Part shown: positions 36,627 to 57,697 of the stretch, piece by piece
How positions within the stretch are numbered: position 1 is the first letter of the stretch
Layout of the letters: each line of letters starts with the position of its first letter
Assembly (NCBI GenBank): GCA_028285755.1
Contig: JANQOQ010000001.1
Coordinates: 62,001 to 126,000 of the forward strand
DNA from: Puniceicoccaceae bacterium
GTDB taxonomy: Bacteria > Verrucomicrobiota > Verrucomicrobiia > Opitutales > JAFGAQ01
Reading direction: 5' to 3'
DNA length: 64,000 nucleotides
Made by a program: the position numbers and the translations under genes
The notes under the pieces: generated by a model
What the model saw: the letters and a program-made list of their open reading frames with translations, nothing else
Databases searched by the model: none
Told to the model about the DNA's origin: nothing

Positions 36627-36632
36627 TTGAGC

Positions 36633-37403
36633 ATGAACCGGGTTCAGTATATCATAGGCTTAATGCTTGTTGGCTGCAACATGCTATTCTCGAACGCCCC
36701 GGAAAAGCAGATAGTAGTTAAACTACCCCAGTCTGCGGAGATCCATTTTTCATATATGCCTGCCGGTGAATTTCTGATGGGCAGCCCGGAAACGGAAATG
36801 GGCAGAGACCGCGATGAATCCCCGCAAATCAGACATACGGTTGCATCCTTTTACCTGGGAACCTATGAGGTAACCCAACGGCAGTGGCTCGCGGTGATGG
36901 GCTACAACCCTGCAACTTTTCAACAAAGTGTAGATCACCTGGATTACCCGATAGAGAGCGTGAGCTGGCACGAATGCCAGGCATTTGTTGAAAAACTCAA
37001 TACTCTGGGGATAGGCAGCTTCCGCATGCCGACTGAAATTGAATGGGAATATGCGGCTCGTGCGGGCACCACAACTCCCCATTACTGGGGCGAGCAACAG
37101 GAAGACTGGTTCGTTAATAAAAAAGCCTGGATCAACTCCCGATCGCTGGGAATGACTCATCCGGTAGGCACTAAAGAACCGAATCCGTGGGGCCTCTACG
37201 ACATCGCGGGCAACGTGTGGGAATGGACTTCTACGTCCTACGGCCCTTATGGTGAAGCACCCAGTGATCACTCTCAAAAAGTGTTTCGCGGAGGCAGTTG
37301 GTATGACTTTGGCAAAAGCCAGCGTTCTGCAAATCGCCATCGTCACGGCATCGATGAAAAATACCCCGTAATCGGGCTTCGCTTAGTCTGGAAAAATGAA
37401 TAA
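36633..37403 (+). CDS. FGE/SUMF1-fold lipoprotein lacking the catalytic cysteines
   Basis: About 256 residues, starting seven bases after the IclR stop (the frame also allows TTG at 36627). A lipoprotein signal is likely, with lipobox LVGC at C15. The rest is a formylglycine-generating-enzyme (SUMF1) domain: MPAGEFLMGSPE, VTQRQWLAVMGYNPA, FRMPTEIEWEYAARAG and VFRGGSWYDF. The cysteine pair that binds copper and oxidises sulfatase cysteines should sit just after RGGSW; here that stretch has none. It therefore cannot be a standard sulfatase activator. The fold may instead bind carbohydrate or a partner protein at the membrane. It overlaps the next, related gene by eight bases. Confidence 0.87.
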   Translation: MNRVQYIIGLMLVGCNMLFSNAPEKQIVVKLPQSAEIHFSYMPAGEFLMGSPETEMGRDRDESPQIRHTVASFYLGTYEVTQRQWLAVMGYNPATFQQSVDHLDYPIESVSWHECQAFVEKLNTLGIGSFRMPTEIEWEYAARAGTTTPHYWGEQQEDWFVNKKAWINSRSLGMTHPVGTKEPNPWGLYDIAGNVWEWTSTSYGPYGEAPSDHSQKVFRGGSWYDFGKSQRSANRHRHGIDEKYPVIGLRLVWKNE

Positions 37404-38166
37404 ATATTGGACAGTCCTATTGTGCTTAATCTCAGCAAACTTTGCATCTGCTGAGACACTAAGCCTGAATCTGAATGGGATCCAGAAGACATTTATAAAA
37501 GTACCCGCAGGCACATTTACCATGGGCTCAACAACCGAAATTGCCTATTCGCAGCGGGATGAGCGGCCGACTTCTGAAGTGACGATCAGCGAGGATTTTT
37601 ATCTGGCGCAAACAGAGCTCAGCCAGAAGCTATGGGAGAGTGTGATGCACTATAACCCTTCAGTATTCAAAGGGGAGAACATGCCCGTGGATATGATATC
37701 CTGGGATGACAGCATGCGCTTTATCGATAAACTCAATGAACTCTGGGAGGGCGAAGGCACCTTTCGGATGCCGACTGAGGCAGAATGGGAGTATGCGGCC
37801 CGTCTGGCAGAGCCCCCTATCCGAGATGAAACCGGCGAGATCAACATCTGGGAATTTCAAAAGTTTGCTTGGTTCAACAGTAGAGCAGAAGGCCGTGCCC
37901 ACCCGATGGGGACCAAGCAGGCGGATATGCTCGGCTTTTACGATTTGTTTGGCAACCACTGGGAATGGTGCTCCGACTGGAAAGGAGATTACACTGCAAA
38001 ACCCAAGGTTGACCCCCAAGGCCCTGAGACCGGTACACACAAAATATATCGGGGGGGCAGCTGGTTTAATGAACCTCAGGCCCTAAGGCCTGAAAACCGC
38101 AATGCGCACCCACCGGAGGTTCCCTTTACCAATGCAAGCCTGAGACTTGTGTACGTACATAAGTAG
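37396..38166 (+). CDS. FGE/SUMF1-fold exported protein lacking the catalytic cysteines
   Basis: A 256-residue paralogue of the preceding protein, with a cleavable signal peptide (LLCLISANFASA). SUMF1 landmarks are KVPAGTFTMGS, YLAQTELSQKLWESVMHYNP, FRMPTEAEWEYAARL, FGNHWEWCSDW and IYRGGSWFNEP. No cysteine follows RGGSW, so the formylglycine-forming site is missing here too. The start ATG lies inside the end of the previous gene (8-base overlap), so the two are translationally coupled and may form a heteromer. No later gene follows closely on this strand except the oxidoreductase 60 bases on. Confidence 0.87.
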   Translation: MNKYWTVLLCLISANFASAETLSLNLNGIQKTFIKVPAGTFTMGSTTEIAYSQRDERPTSEVTISEDFYLAQTELSQKLWESVMHYNPSVFKGENMPVDMISWDDSMRFIDKLNELWEGEGTFRMPTEAEWEYAARLAEPPIRDETGEINIWEFQKFAWFNSRAEGRAHPMGTKQADMLGFYDLFGNHWEWCSDWKGDYTAKPKVDPQGPETGTHKIYRGGSWFNEPQALRPENRNAHPPEVPFTNASLRLVYVHK

Positions 38167-47477: not shown

Positions 47478-50400
47478 TTGAGAGCACTATTAAATAGATT
47501 CTATAATGCCCTTGCAGTTACGTGTTTGGGAATAGGTCTTGTTGCTCACGCTAATATTAATAATTATAACATTCAGCATTATGGTGTTAGCGATGGGCTA
47601 CCCATGCTTGATGTTAACGCCATAGCACAAGACGACTTTGGGTTTATTTGGATCGGCACCGGGGATGGATTATCAAGATTTGATGGCAAGCGCTTTTACA
47701 ACTTTCGCAAGAACCCCAATGATACCCATAGCTTATATTCCAACCGGGTTTTAACCCTTCTCAAAGATCGCAATCAAAATCGTTTATGGCTGGGAACCCG
47801 GGGAGGTGGCTTACAATGGTTTGAACCTGGAAAGAGCGGATTTTACACTTTTGAATTTAGCGAAGAAGATGAGGATCTCAAAAAATCCACCATTAGCAGT
47901 ATGTTTCAGGGGCAAGGATCAAAATTATGGTTGAGCCTAATGGACTATGGGGGACTCGTTCGCGTTGACACGGAAGACGGGAACGTGACACGCATTGCAA
48001 AGTCTAATTTTGGATTACCCGAAAATTGGCGATACAACGTATACGCGATCACAAGATATTCAGATACGCAATTGTTACTCGGAACCAATCACGGCCTCTA
48101 TAAGCTCAATACCGATTCATTGAACTTAGATTTCATTGATTTAAGTAAACTGGACAACAGCATATCCAAATGGCTGGATATCAGCTCAATTCAGGTAGGC
48201 TTGGATGGCAAAATATGGTTAGGCACCAAAGACTATGGGTTGCTGCTTCTGGACACCCCTAAGAATACACTAACCCAATACACGGATACTGAGGGGCATG
48301 GTTCACTGGGAGACGATGACATCGAGCAACTCCATATGGATGATAGTGGCACGCTCTGGGTCGCTAACGAAAAGACCCTCGATAGCATAGATACGGCTAC
48401 CCGAAGGATACTTACCAACATGCTGGAATCTAAGAATGAGTTACGGGTAACCGACTTCTTTAAGGATAAACAAGGCATTATCTGGATCGGTTTTGAAGAC
48501 GGTGGACTCACTAAGATCACTCCGAAACGATTTAACTACACCCATTGGCAGCATCAACCTGACAATCCCAACAGTCTCCCCGGATATCATATATACGGTA
48601 TTACTGAAGACTCTCGAAAGCGCATATGGCTGGGCTCAAAATCATCAGGAGTCTCAGTATATGACCCATTGAGCGAAACGTTTAACCACTACGACGAAAG
48701 CGATGAGCCGGGCGCATTAAGCAATTCTACCATTCTATATGTGCATGAATGCAAAAACAAACTAATGTGGATTGCAAACGGTCGCGGCTTGGAACGCTTT
48801 GATGAGCACTCACAAACATTCATCAGTTACAATGAGAAAATAGAACACGCCATAGGTAGAAATTTAAGATCGGTTTACAAATTGGCAAATGACTCATCCG
48901 GCAACCTTTGGGTACCTACCCGGCATGACATCTTGAGATACTTACCGGAAACGGACAGTTTTGAAAAACTTTATGTCAATGAAGCTTTTTCAAGCTTTGA
49001 AAAACAAACAAGATTCCGCCTACTCTTCGAAGACTCGAAGGGTAATTTTTACGCAGGTACAGACCATGGTGTCCTGGAGTTTAATGAAGATAAGACAAAC
49101 TTCACGGTGCATTCCCTTGAGCATGGCCTTATCAACCCCGAGATCCGGGCATTCCTCGAGGATAGCAGTGGCAACATCTGGTTAGCCACCCGGGGTGGGC
49201 TCATTAAGTGGGATCGTAATCAAAATTCATTTGAGAACTATACGTCGCAAAACGGTTTACCCAGCGATATTGTATACGGAATCGAACAAGATGACTCCGG
49301 GTATTTATGGCTTAGTACTACTTCGGGAATATGTAAATTTAACCCGAATACCGGCGAATCGCGCGCATATGATGTGCACGATGGTTTGGACGTGAGCGGT
49401 TTTGAACTCTTTTCCCATGAAAAACTGCATGATGGGAGAATCGTCTTTGGGGGAAAGAATGGGGTTGTCATCCTGGATCCCTCTGAAATGCAAATTTATA
49501 GAGAACAGCACCCTTTACACATCACCGAACTCGTGAACCATCGGCTCAGCGAAAAGAGTGACCCCCATATTTTTGACCGCCAAAAAATAGTACTTGAACA
49601 CTGGGAAGACTACCTGAGCTTAAACCTTGCATCACTTGATTTTTATGCTCCCCCTAAAACACAATATGCTTACCGTCTAAAGGGTTTCGAAACCTACTGG
49701 AATCATCTCGGTAATGACCGCACGATCAAATTTAATAATCTGGAACCCGGCAAGTATCAGCTTCAGGCCAAAGCTACCAATCATGACGGTGTATGGTCTG
49801 AATACCCAATCACGCTCGATATTAAAGTAAAAAAACCCTGGTGGGGTACTTGGATATTTAGATCCGTTATCTTGAGCGCCATACTATTGGTCGGCTACAT
49901 TATTCATAAATATGTGACAACCCGCATTCGCAGACACAATCAGGCACTCAAACTTGAAGTTGAAGAGCGCATAAAAATGGAACAGGCACTCATCCAGGCT
50001 AAAAACCAGGCTGAAATCGCAAATCAATCCAAAAGTGCGTTCCTCGCAAACATGAGCCACGAAATCCGTACTCCCATGAACGGTATAATCGGTATGTCGG
50101 GTCTGTTGATCGAAGAAGATCTTAAAAAGGAAGACAAAAAGGCGGTCGAAGTGATACGTGGGTGCGCCAAGACCCTGATGCACCTCATCAATGAGATCTT
50201 GGATTACTCTAAGATCGAAGCAGGTAAAACCAGCATCGAAAATGAAGAATTTGATATTGTGGAGTTATGCGACGATATCAGCCTGATGCTCCATACACAG
50301 GCCTATAATAAAAAAATCCAATTCACTACCAGCATATGCCACAGAATCCCTCGCTATCTCTATGGAGATGCCACCCGCATCCGACAGATGCTGGTGAACC

Positions 50401-51590
50401 TACTTGGAAATGCCATAAAATTCACGGCAAAGGGGGAAGTGTGCCTCATGATCAGTCTTCTCGATAGTAAGCCTGATAAAAAAGTTATACTTTTTAAGGT
50501 GAAGGATACTGGAATCGGTATTTCGCAATCGAAAATCGATAGTGTATTTGAACCATTCAACCAGGCAGATAACTCGATTACACGTGAATTTGGAGGCACA
50601 GGTCTGGGTCTCACGATCACAAAACGCATCTGCGAACTATGCGGAGGCAGCATTGGAGTGGAGAGTGTCGAAGGTAAAGGATCAACATTTTGGATAAAAC
50701 TCCCGCTTAGGACTACTCGCAAAAAAGATTCCTATCATCCACTGGAAGGCCAACGGATATTATTGATTGATCGACAGCACAATAGCCGAACAGCCGTTGC
50801 CAATCTGCTAAATCGTGCCCGATGCCTCACCTATCAAGTGGATTCAAACAAACTGGCAAAGCATATCTGTGAAAAACAATACAATACGGACCAAGGCTTT
50901 GACTGCATCTTGTTTAACTATTCCGCAGATGAACATAAAGACATCCTGGATCTTGCAAAGAGTATTCGCAAAATTGCATTAAATAGAACCCCTCCCCTTT
51001 TACTGATGGCTTTTTTGCAGGACAACATCGATTTCGAACCATTTGAAAATGCAGGCTTTACGAGTATCATTAGCAAACCGGTACAGGAAAAAGACCTCGT
51101 TGAGGCACTTTACAGCAAGATCGAAGTTAAAAAAACGCCAGACAGTGTACCTTCCGAAACCCGGATTCCTGAAAAATTGGAAAAATTAAACACCGATCAC
51201 AAAATATTGGTGGTAGAGGATAATCAGGTAAATAAGAAGGTGGTGGGGCAAATTTTGACAAAACTGGGTTTTGAACGTGATTTTGCAAGTGACGGTGTCG
51301 AAGCTTTAAGCATGTTAAAAAAGCACTCGTATGATCTCGTTTTAATGGATGTAAACATGCCCTTACTGGATGGACTCGAAACCACACGAAGGATTCGTTC
51401 CGGCGTAATACCCGAAATAGACACCCGAATACCCATCATTGCATTGACGGCCATGGCCTATAAGGAAGACGAAGAAAAATGCTTGGAAGCGGGTATGGAT
51501 TCATTCCTGACAAAACCTTTCAGCAAAGAGAAACTCGCAAAGTTATTGAATCAATTTCTAAAGCTGGAACTGGAATACAGCACGCGATAA
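47478..51590 (+). CDS. Hybrid two-component sensor kinase (propeller, Y_Y_Y, kinase, two receivers)
   Basis: A 1370-residue sensor of HTCS-like layout. A TTG start at 47478 is indicated: the in-frame stop at 47448 leaves no ATG or GTG before the signal peptide ([16 protein letters not shown]). Residues 30-700 are two-component-regulator propeller blades ([19 protein letters not shown]). The Y_Y_Y domain is at about 722-787 and a membrane segment at 793-815. HisKA has phosphorylated H861 ([11 protein letters not shown]); HATPase at 960-1075 has the N, G1 and G2 boxes. Receiver 1 (about 1091-1215) lacks a phosphorylatable aspartate; receiver 2 (1242-1360) has D1291 (LMDVNMP). There is no DNA-binding domain, unlike Bacteroidetes HTCS, so a separate partner must carry the output. 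It probably senses a glycan breakdown product. Confidence 0.93.
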
Positions 51591-55361: not shown

Positions 55362-56237
55362 TTAATTGCCCGCCAGCTCAAGCAGACGTTGAAACGAATA
55401 CTCAGTGAGCATCTCGTGATTGCCCTCAAATATTGTGAGCCCTACCCCGGGAATGGATCTTGAATATAATATCGCACGATTTTCGATCGTTCCTCTTTCG
55501 GGATAAATGCTGTAACCACGAGTCAATAATTGCACCTGGTCCTCCGCAGGGATCAGGGCATCCGAAAAACCTCTCTCCTGAGCCAGTTTATTAAAAAACC
55601 GCAAGGAATGAGAAATCGGCACGCTCCCTTGGTAACCGTCATTAACCCCAGCGAAAATCTCTAATTGGGCTGCAGGATGGGAATGATCCTCCCAGTAAAG
55701 CGGTGACCTGTCACGGGCAAAATCAACATCCAGTAAAGCCCCCGCATCGAGACAATCCAGGATATCCTGTGCATATTTATTAGCACGATTCTTACTCTGC
55801 CAATACCAGGACTCCAGATCACTAATCGGAACCCAACTGAAGTAGGTATGCACCGGATGCTTACTCCTTAAATACATACCCAGCGCTGCATAACCTCCGC
55901 CTGAGACTCCCACTACGAATATTCTATCTCTATCTACATTGCCTAACTTGATCGCAAAATCGAGCGCGTCTTCCAGGTCGCTCAGTGCAGCATCGCTCAG
56001 ACAGGCTTCGGGTGTACGATTCGCTCCCCGGAAATTGGGAAAAATGTAGTTCCAGTTTTCTGCGGCAAATTTTTCAGCCAGGGGATCCTGCTGCTGATAA
56101 TCTCCCGACCAGGTATGCAAGCGAACCGCTAATGGACGTTTAGCTTCACCGGTTGCAGCCCTGAAAATGGCAGGCTGTAAGGTGCCATCGTAGCTGGCAG
56201 GAATCTCTACCCGCTTAAATTCGTCATCTAATGTACT
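55362..56237 (-). CDS. Alpha/beta hydrolase (S9-like) without its own start codon
   Basis: The catalytic part is intact: S73 in GVSGGGYAA, D161 in AGVNDGYQG and H235 in FEGNHEM (numbered from the TTG at 56120). The conserved family N terminus continues upstream of that TTG (RVEIPASYDGTLQPAIF and PLAVRLHTWSGDY), so translation must begin earlier. Upstream the frame has no ATG, GTG or TTG before a stop at 56244-56246, which lies within the end of the sulfatase gene. A -1 shift on the sulfatase's nine-A run enters this frame directly at 56237. The protein may therefore be made as a sulfatase fusion, or the gene may be broken by one base, or the run may be misread. Probable role: esterase removing acyl groups from the sulfated glycan. 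Confidence 0.75.
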   Translation of the reverse strand, partial: STLDDEFKRVEIPASYDGTLQPAIFRAATGEAKRPLAVRLHTWSGDYQQQDPLAEKFAAENWNYIFPNFRGANRTPEACLSDAALSDLEDALDFAIKLGNVDRDRIFVVGVSGGGYAALGMYLRSKHPVHTYFSWVPISDLESWYWQSKNRANKYAQDILDCLDAGALLDVDFARDRSPLYWEDHSHPAAQLEIFAGVNDGYQGSVPISHSLRFFNKLAQERGFSDALIPAEDQVQLLTRGYSIYPERGTIENRAILYSRSIPGVGLTIFEGNHEMLTEYSFQRLLELAGN

Positions 56238-57697
56238 TTTTTTTTAGTATCCCAGACCGGCCCAGTCGGTTCAGCTACCGGATCCTCCATTTCCTCCATG
56301 AGCACAACCAAAGCTTTCTTAAGCTTTAGCAATTGATCCGAATAATTTGCATCTGCCACAAGATCATTCATCTCGAAGGGATCCTCAGCCAGGTTAAACA
56401 TACGATAGTGATCTATTTTCGGATAATAAATCAGTTTAAAGTCATCTTCAATGACCGCACGCTGGTGCTCCCGATAGGCCCCATATATCCGCTCATATTG
56501 CTCTTCCCGTTCACCGTTTATCAACGGTAACAGGCTCTTAAACTCCACATAGTCAGGCACCTCCACCCCAGCGAGCTCCAGAGTTGTAGGCATAACATCC
56601 TGATAATACACCCGGGTATCGATCTGCTTTCCCGGAGGAATGCCCGGCCCGGCCAATATCAACGGGGGTTTCAAGCTGTGCTCATACATATTCTGCTTTC
56701 CCATGAACCCATGACGCCCCACCGCTAGTCCGTGATCTGCGGTGAAGATGATATAGGTATTATCCGCTTTTCCTGTAACTTGCAGGCCATCCAGAATGCG
56801 GCCGATCTGCTCATCCATATGAGTAATGATCGCGTAATAATCCCGTCGATGGCTCTTGACTGCATACTCAGTGCGTGGCCAGGGAGCCAGTTTCTCATCC
56901 CGCAAATCCCGCCCGGCACCCATCCCTTCCATGTAGGGGTATTCTTCCATGTAGTTTTCAGGCATTGCAATACGCTCCATGGGATAAGGCTCACCATACT
57001 CCAGCGGATATTGGCGTGGGTCATGCGGTGCATTAAATGCCAAATACATAAAGAAAGGGTTCTCAGAATCTGTGGCGCGCTCAAGAAACATTTCCGCATC
57101 ATCCGCAAGTACTTCGCTCCAGTGCTTTCCACCCGCCCAAAATCCTTCATATCGTGGGTCCTGCGGGGTCCAGGGATCAGGCTGCCCAATTTTCGGACGT
57201 TGGTACGAATCCGGATAGACCTCAGGGTTGGTAGGCCCGGGCATACCCGGCCGCTTATGGGCCACATAATTAAACATGTCGCCAACATTTGCATCCACGT
57301 GCCATTTACCGGTCATGTAGGCATCGTAGCCGACCGAACGCAGCAGCTGAGGCCAAGTTCTTTTACCGCTTACTTCAGCGCTCAACCTATCTTCGATCCT
57401 ATATGCACGCCAGAGGAAACGACCGGTATTGATCATCGTGCGGCTGGCTACACAAATCGCACCACTCCAACCACCCATATTATAGGCATTCGTAAAGGTG
57501 GTACCTTCCCTTACAAGCCGATCCAGATTGGGCGTATCAATGTCGGTGTGTTCCAGCGCTGCTATCGTTTCGTAGCATTGGTCATCCGCAAAAATAAACA
57601 GAAAGTTGGGCTGAGCATTTTCTACGTCTGCTGAAGCAAAGAGGCTGAAACAAATCATAACAACCACAGATAATAACTTACATGATCTCATATTCAT
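56228..57697 (-). CDS. Secreted sulfatase (S1 family, CVASR variant)
   Basis: A 489-residue exported sulfatase. Signal peptide at residues 1-23. Metal ligands D38-D39 are in FLFIFADDQCYE. The formylglycine cysteine is C82 in ICVASRTMINTGR, the C-x-A-x-R form of the motif rather than C-x-P-x-R. AYMTGKWHVDANVGD and the C-terminal YYPKIDHYRMFNLAEDPFEM are typical. The last codons read Asp-Thr-Lys-Lys-Lys-Val-His, the three lysines coming from nine A in a row, and the stop is TAG at 56230-56228. The alpha/beta hydrolase frame begins at this run. Divergent from the next sulfatase with 122 bases between. Confidence 0.94.
   Translation of the reverse strand: MNMRSCKLLSVVVMICFSLFASADVENAQPNFLFIFADDQCYETIAALEHTDIDTPNLDRLVREGTTFTNAYNMGGWSGAICVASRTMINTGRFLWRAYRIEDRLSAEVSGKRTWPQLLRSVGYDAYMTGKWHVDANVGDMFNYVAHKRPGMPGPTNPEVYPDSYQRPKIGQPDPWTPQDPRYEGFWAGGKHWSEVLADDAEMFLERATDSENPFFMYLAFNAPHDPRQYPLEYGEPYPMERIAMPENYMEEYPYMEGMGAGRDLRDEKLAPWPRTEYAVKSHRRDYYAIITHMDEQIGRILDGLQVTGKADNTYIIFTADHGLAVGRHGFMGKQNMYEHSLKPPLILAGPGIPPGKQIDTRVYYQDVMPTTLELAGVEVPDYVEFKSLLPLINGEREEQYERIYGAYREHQRAVIEDDFKLIYYPKIDHYRMFNLAEDPFEMNDLVADANYSDQLLKLKKALVVLMEEMEDPVAEPTGPVWDTKKKVH
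56237..56245 (-). promoter_or_regulatory. Nine-A slippery run joining sulfatase and hydrolase frames
   Basis: In the sulfatase frame the run reads three AAA codons followed by G, which contains the A-AAA-AAA slippery heptamer. Slipping back one base here leaves the sulfatase frame and enters the hydrolase frame (Ser-Thr-Leu-Asp-Asp) with no stop. Could be programmed -1 shifting, RNA polymerase slippage, a mutation or a base-count error. Confidence 0.5.

Follow-up and report, generated by a model that had tools for sequence, protein, structure and literature searches.

The window, by which we mean the whole 64,000-nucleotide stretch of DNA analyzed, comes from a Puniceicoccaceae bacterium. Its minus strand carries a sulfatase gene followed by an open frame for an alpha/beta-hydrolase, and a run of nine A's lies where the two meet (Table 1). 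The sulfatase matches PF00884 with 148 bits over residues 30-378 (cut-off 25) and also contains an SGSH_C domain. By reading, it has an N-terminal hydrophobic leader and the active-site motif CVASR.

Table 1. Features at the sulfatase-hydrolase junction (positions in the window)
Feature	Position	Strand	Description	Basis or significance
S1-type sulfatase, secreted	56228..57697	-	489 aa, C-terminus ...GPVWDTKKKVH	ORF, PF00884, SGSH_C
Linker VAEPTGPVWDT, sulfatase frame	56246..56278	-	Gain of ~7 bits against the hydrolase profile	Probable fusion join
Nine-A run, A_AAA_AAA_G slip site	56237..56245	-		Point of frame loss
Alpha/beta-hydrolase (prolyl-oligopeptidase-like) frame	55362..56243	-	293 codons	No usable start
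First TTG of the hydrolase frame	56118..56120	-		Initiation at this codon would remove beta-strands 1-2 and most of 3

In the sulfatase frame, the minus strand at the junction reads GGG CCG GTC TGG GAT ACT AAA AAA AAA GTA CAT TAG. The stop codon (56230-56228) lies two codons past the nine A's, which run from 56245 to 56237. A TAA at 56246-56244, built from the first two A's of the run itself, interrupts the -1 frame. Past this TAA the frame stays open for 293 codons down to 55362, overlapping the sulfatase frame by ~16 nt. As the first-pass annotation proposed, a single -1 slip at A-AAA-AAA-G leads from the last codons of the sulfatase straight into the hydrolase frame. The slip gives Thr-Lys-Lys-Lys-Ser-Thr-Leu, which is equivalent to the insertion of one A, and the deletion of two A's restores the joint frame equally well. 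The junction-spanning peptide predicted for the fusion is ...WDTKKKSTLDDEFK.... The run presents a slippery heptamer of the form X_XXY_YYZ, A_AAA_AAA_G, in the correct frame, and its nine A's reach the length associated with transcriptional slippage, an A/T run of at least nine within coding sequence. In a 410-kb sample of the genome that includes the window, five A/T runs of exactly nine were counted; they form the longest class, with none of ten or more. The chance of a nine-A run in a given 16-nt overlap, computed after the fact, is ~5e-5, which makes it very likely that the run caused the frame change.

The hydrolase frame belongs with the S9 prolyl-oligopeptidase-like alpha/beta-hydrolases by its family profile (PF00326, 32.5 bits vs. 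a cut-off of 22.6), its fold and its Ser-Asp-His triad. The nearest known folds of the predicted model (pLDDT 87, pTM 0.88) are acylaminoacyl peptidases and esterases, and the triad Ser114/Asp202/His276 is intact, with each residue in an invariant column. The coding signal of the frame is that of the adjacent genes. It deviates from 6 of 62 invariant columns, compared with 8 of 64 and 9 of 65 in intact homologues that are equally distant. By these measures the hydrolase is not a decayed gene. Its beginning, as had been claimed from the first reading, is startless: after the stop at 56244 there is no ATG, GTG or TTG ahead of the TTG at 56120 (codon 42). The only near-starts before that point are two ATT codons, and no Shine-Dalgarno-like sequence precedes the TTG or either ATT. 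An alternative hydrolase start is improbable because the TTG sits behind two complete predicted strands and most of a third (pLDDT 93-95 over residues 11-40). We rejected a separate start for want of a usable codon or Shine-Dalgarno sequence, and because initiation at the TTG would remove these strands. The frame also has no signal peptide of its own, and nearly all its relatives carry a hydrophobic leader (G660 is apparently without one). The hydrolase would thus be exported only via the signal peptide of the sulfatase.

At the end of the sulfatase, relatives with 53-66% identity terminate near residue 474-480, and the sulfatase profile lends no support to the tail of the 489-aa protein, with 826 of 1000 shuffles scoring as well. 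Some relatives have natural lysine-rich tails with a terminal His that resemble KKKVH. The idea that KKKVH is a natural sulfatase tail finds no backing in the sulfatase profile, but the terminal His of these relatives keeps it alive. Many sulfatases of the subfamily end in His, often behind a lysine-rich tail, and they do so across separate lineages (L068-L072, L075, L083, L100, L106, L107 and L111).

Homology to the two nearest hydrolases extends upstream of the A-run, inside the sulfatase frame. The shared motif is P-x-W-D, with PVWDT here and PAWDDT and PKWDDT in the two hydrolases. A profile of these two proteins was scored with and without the sulfatase-frame residues that precede the run. 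Their inclusion added between 7 bits (for VAEPTGPVWDT) and 12 bits (for 20 residues). None of 1500 random protein segments from the same genome scored as well as the 14- or the 20-residue stretch, and none of 624 sulfatase tail segments equalled the gain from VAEPTGPVWDT. The homologous stretch is short, only 11 residues, and it was equalled by 4-24 of 1500 shuffles, depending on whether three or two lysines were included. With a broader profile the upstream homology is weaker (about 1-3%). Since the homology reaches beyond the run on its upstream side, the fusion appears to be real and joined within the hydrolase leader. We hold with moderate confidence that the A-run would lie inside a leader derived from the hydrolase, and that the fusion was formerly in frame. 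We take the locus to be a real and probably young sulfatase-hydrolase fusion, interrupted at the A-run. The suggestion in the first-pass annotation of one fused gene broken at this point is supported by the homology that crosses the run, and by an intact hydrolase with neither start nor signal peptide.

Homologues of the hydrolase are separate proteins wherever we found them, at 54% (G128), 48% (G660) and 31-42% (others) identity in the same phylum, and at 41-47% in Bacteroidota and a few other phyla. Searches for the hydrolase and the sulfatase in order, class and phylum samples gave no conserved fusion. None of 78 hydrolase loci from other genomes has an open reading frame with both domains, as a whole or a broken fusion, and no hydrolase was found downstream of the sulfatase among ~50 sulfatase relatives. 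The long open frames around three hydrolases (G500, G354 and G510) were read as candidate fusions and contain no sulfatase. Most of the genomes searched lack the hydrolase. Both genes are absent, at the thresholds used, from the four family members examined, and the genomes searched include no other member of the source genus. The frame break is thus a single case in one genome. The first-pass annotation had named separate hydrolases with a normal start as evidence against its own reading. The relatives checked do encode such hydrolases, which excludes a conserved fusion but is compatible with a fusion confined to a single lineage. In three relatives (G434, G039 and G030), the gene immediately ahead of the hydrolase, in the same orientation, encodes a sulfatase. 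The stop of that sulfatase in G434 (L159, around base 1408) overlaps the ATG of the hydrolase, which belongs to the family of the one studied here, and the two form a closely coupled pair of separate proteins. An adjacent pair of this kind is a plausible precursor of the fusion.

Published data on slippage bear on what the run would do in the cell. In E. coli, a nine-A cassette gave 40% frameshifting, and cassettes of 11 and 7 A's gave 63% and 10% (PMC3711429). Nine is also the run length at which a substantial fraction of bacterial genomes begins to show selection against slippage by RNA polymerase (PMC1088944). Given the slippage published for nine A's, a real run should yield some fusion product, the published rates being those of E. 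coli. We examined the surroundings of the run for a stimulator. Folds downstream of the run (z -0.99) and of its flanks (z -1.35) are within the range of shuffles, in models without pseudoknots, and a strong RNA structure that could act as stimulator did not emerge from these folds. A GGAGGA lies ~39 nt upstream, too far for a stimulator (about 10-14 nt). The slip site and the arrangement of the frames are not conserved in related genes (78 hydrolase loci, ~50 sulfatase relatives). Because no stimulatory structure stands out and no conservation is shown, programmed dual output from the nine-A run is possible but not supported. The part of the first reading that made -1 frameshifting the designed mechanism is accordingly not supported, since neither the fusion nor the run occurs in any relative and the candidate stimulators are unconvincing. 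If any hydrolase product is made, slippage is its likeliest source.

Our preferred account, which we put forward tentatively and rate at slightly under an even balance, is that of a fused gene knocked out of frame at its A-run, with a minority fusion product made by slippage. The hydrolase would have lost its start and signal peptide and come into one reading frame with the neighbouring sulfatase gene. The join would lie inside the hydrolase leader, and the hydrolase would then be exported on the signal peptide of the sulfatase. A one-base change in an A-run of that leader would then have shifted the hydrolase out of frame, with the run now at nine A's. Translation would mostly stop as a complete sulfatase ending in KKKVH, and a minority product would be a sulfatase-hydrolase fusion of 778 residues. 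The fusion may be made either by RNA polymerase adding one A or by a ribosomal -1 slip on A_AAA_AAA. The order of these events, nine A's as the true cellular count and a useful yield of slippage are what we infer. It is very doubtful, in addition, that selection keeps the nine A's as a set-point, giving much free sulfatase and a fixed secreted fraction of sulfatase-esterase fusion and so setting the ratio of desulfation to de-esterification of a polysaccharide.

A rival explanation is that the true run has ten (or seven) A's and was miscounted in the assembly, so that the gene is an ordinary in-frame sulfatase-hydrolase fusion. Both parts are intact and homology crosses the run, no A/T run in the genome sample is longer than this one, and the same genome has another in-frame sulfatase fusion. 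The rest of the sequence argues the other way. In 410 kb there is no other homopolymer frame break; at the two further candidates the genes proved to be ordinary neighbours, each with a start of its own. Intact long open reading frames contain another A9 and several A8 runs, and nearly all of the 143 sulfatase matches occupy single long frames. A generally poor homopolymer quality of the assembly was not seen in these checks of runs, open reading frames and sulfatase frames, and we regard a miscount as a serious though less likely rival.

Slightly less likely still, but also a serious rival, is a recent one-base indel that silences the hydrolase, leaving either a young pseudogene or a gene switched on and off reversibly by replication slippage. 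A-runs are indel hot spots, this one is not conserved, no stimulatory structure stands out beside it, and the hydrolase is missing from most genomes searched and therefore dispensable. However, its frame and catalytic residues are undecayed, so silencing, if it occurred, was very recent, and A9 itself should leak fusion product (PMC3711429). The hydrolase might instead be translated separately, by re-initiation or from an unusual start (ATT at 56204 or TTG at 56120), with no fusion made. The short overlap of the frames, the overlapping stop and start in G434 and the apparently leaderless G660 are in line with this. Yet ATG and GTG are out of reach, no Shine-Dalgarno-like sequence is present, a start at the TTG would sacrifice strands 1-2 and the greater part of strand 3, and a separately made hydrolase would carry no signal peptide. 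Separate translation is therefore the most improbable of these explanations.

Disrupted genes rescued by transcriptional slippage at A/T runs are known as 'pseudo pseudogenes' (Baranov et al. 2005, PMC1088944), and Citrobacter rodentium tssM1 is another case (PMC4256274). As in these, the two frames here join only if the polymerase lengthens or shortens an A-run near the first frame's end, and a short and a long product are expected. The run is nine A's here and eleven in tssM1. Unlike in the known cases, no single-frame homologue with both domains was found. The magnesium chelatase fs-genes found with GeneTack likewise have a -1 change at poly-A between two separately annotated open reading frames, with nine A's in one tested case (PMC3711429). 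Those genes have been tested, show conservation across genera and have homologues that are fused, whereas ours is a single predicted case. Thermus thermophilus dnaX (PMC1088944) also has nine A's on the sense strand and yields mRNAs of different length, but its slippage gives a shorter product from an intact frame and the slippage here would give a longer one. In-frame multidomain sulfatases, such as the GH78/sulfatase protein of PDB 6hr5 and a 905-aa protein of the same genome, similarly join a sulfatase to a second domain. The second domain here differs in being an S9-like alpha/beta-hydrolase, and its frame is interrupted.

The genome carries an extreme load of sulfatases, with 143 family matches in 4.25 Mb, almost all of them in intact frames. 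The 905-aa fusion is intact (L166:568-3285; G000:C15:807500-812500), and its C-terminal domain of ~460 aa has no Pfam match and resembles structurally characterized DUF5060-containing proteins (9gmj, 8e-35). In the window, two overlapping adjacent FGE-sulfatase (PF03781) genes lie near a sulfatase cluster at 36627-38166 (+). A hybrid two-component regulator of 1370 aa, with Reg_prop propeller, Y_Y_Y, HisKA, HATPase and receiver domains, is encoded at 47478-51590 (+). It adjoins sulfatases and is possibly their regulator.

The sulfatase-hydrolase locus is an isolated, unreplicated example of an already known kind of event. What is new is that homology to the hydrolases extends past the A-run into the sulfatase-frame sequence upstream of it. 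If the nine A's are real and slip, an annotation as a sulfatase and a 'dead' hydrolase fragment hides a bifunctional secreted enzyme, and slippage fusions of this kind would escape notice in sulfatase-rich genomes. The locus would then also show how a homopolymer within a fresh fusion can set the ratio of its products, and can silence or rescue the fusion.
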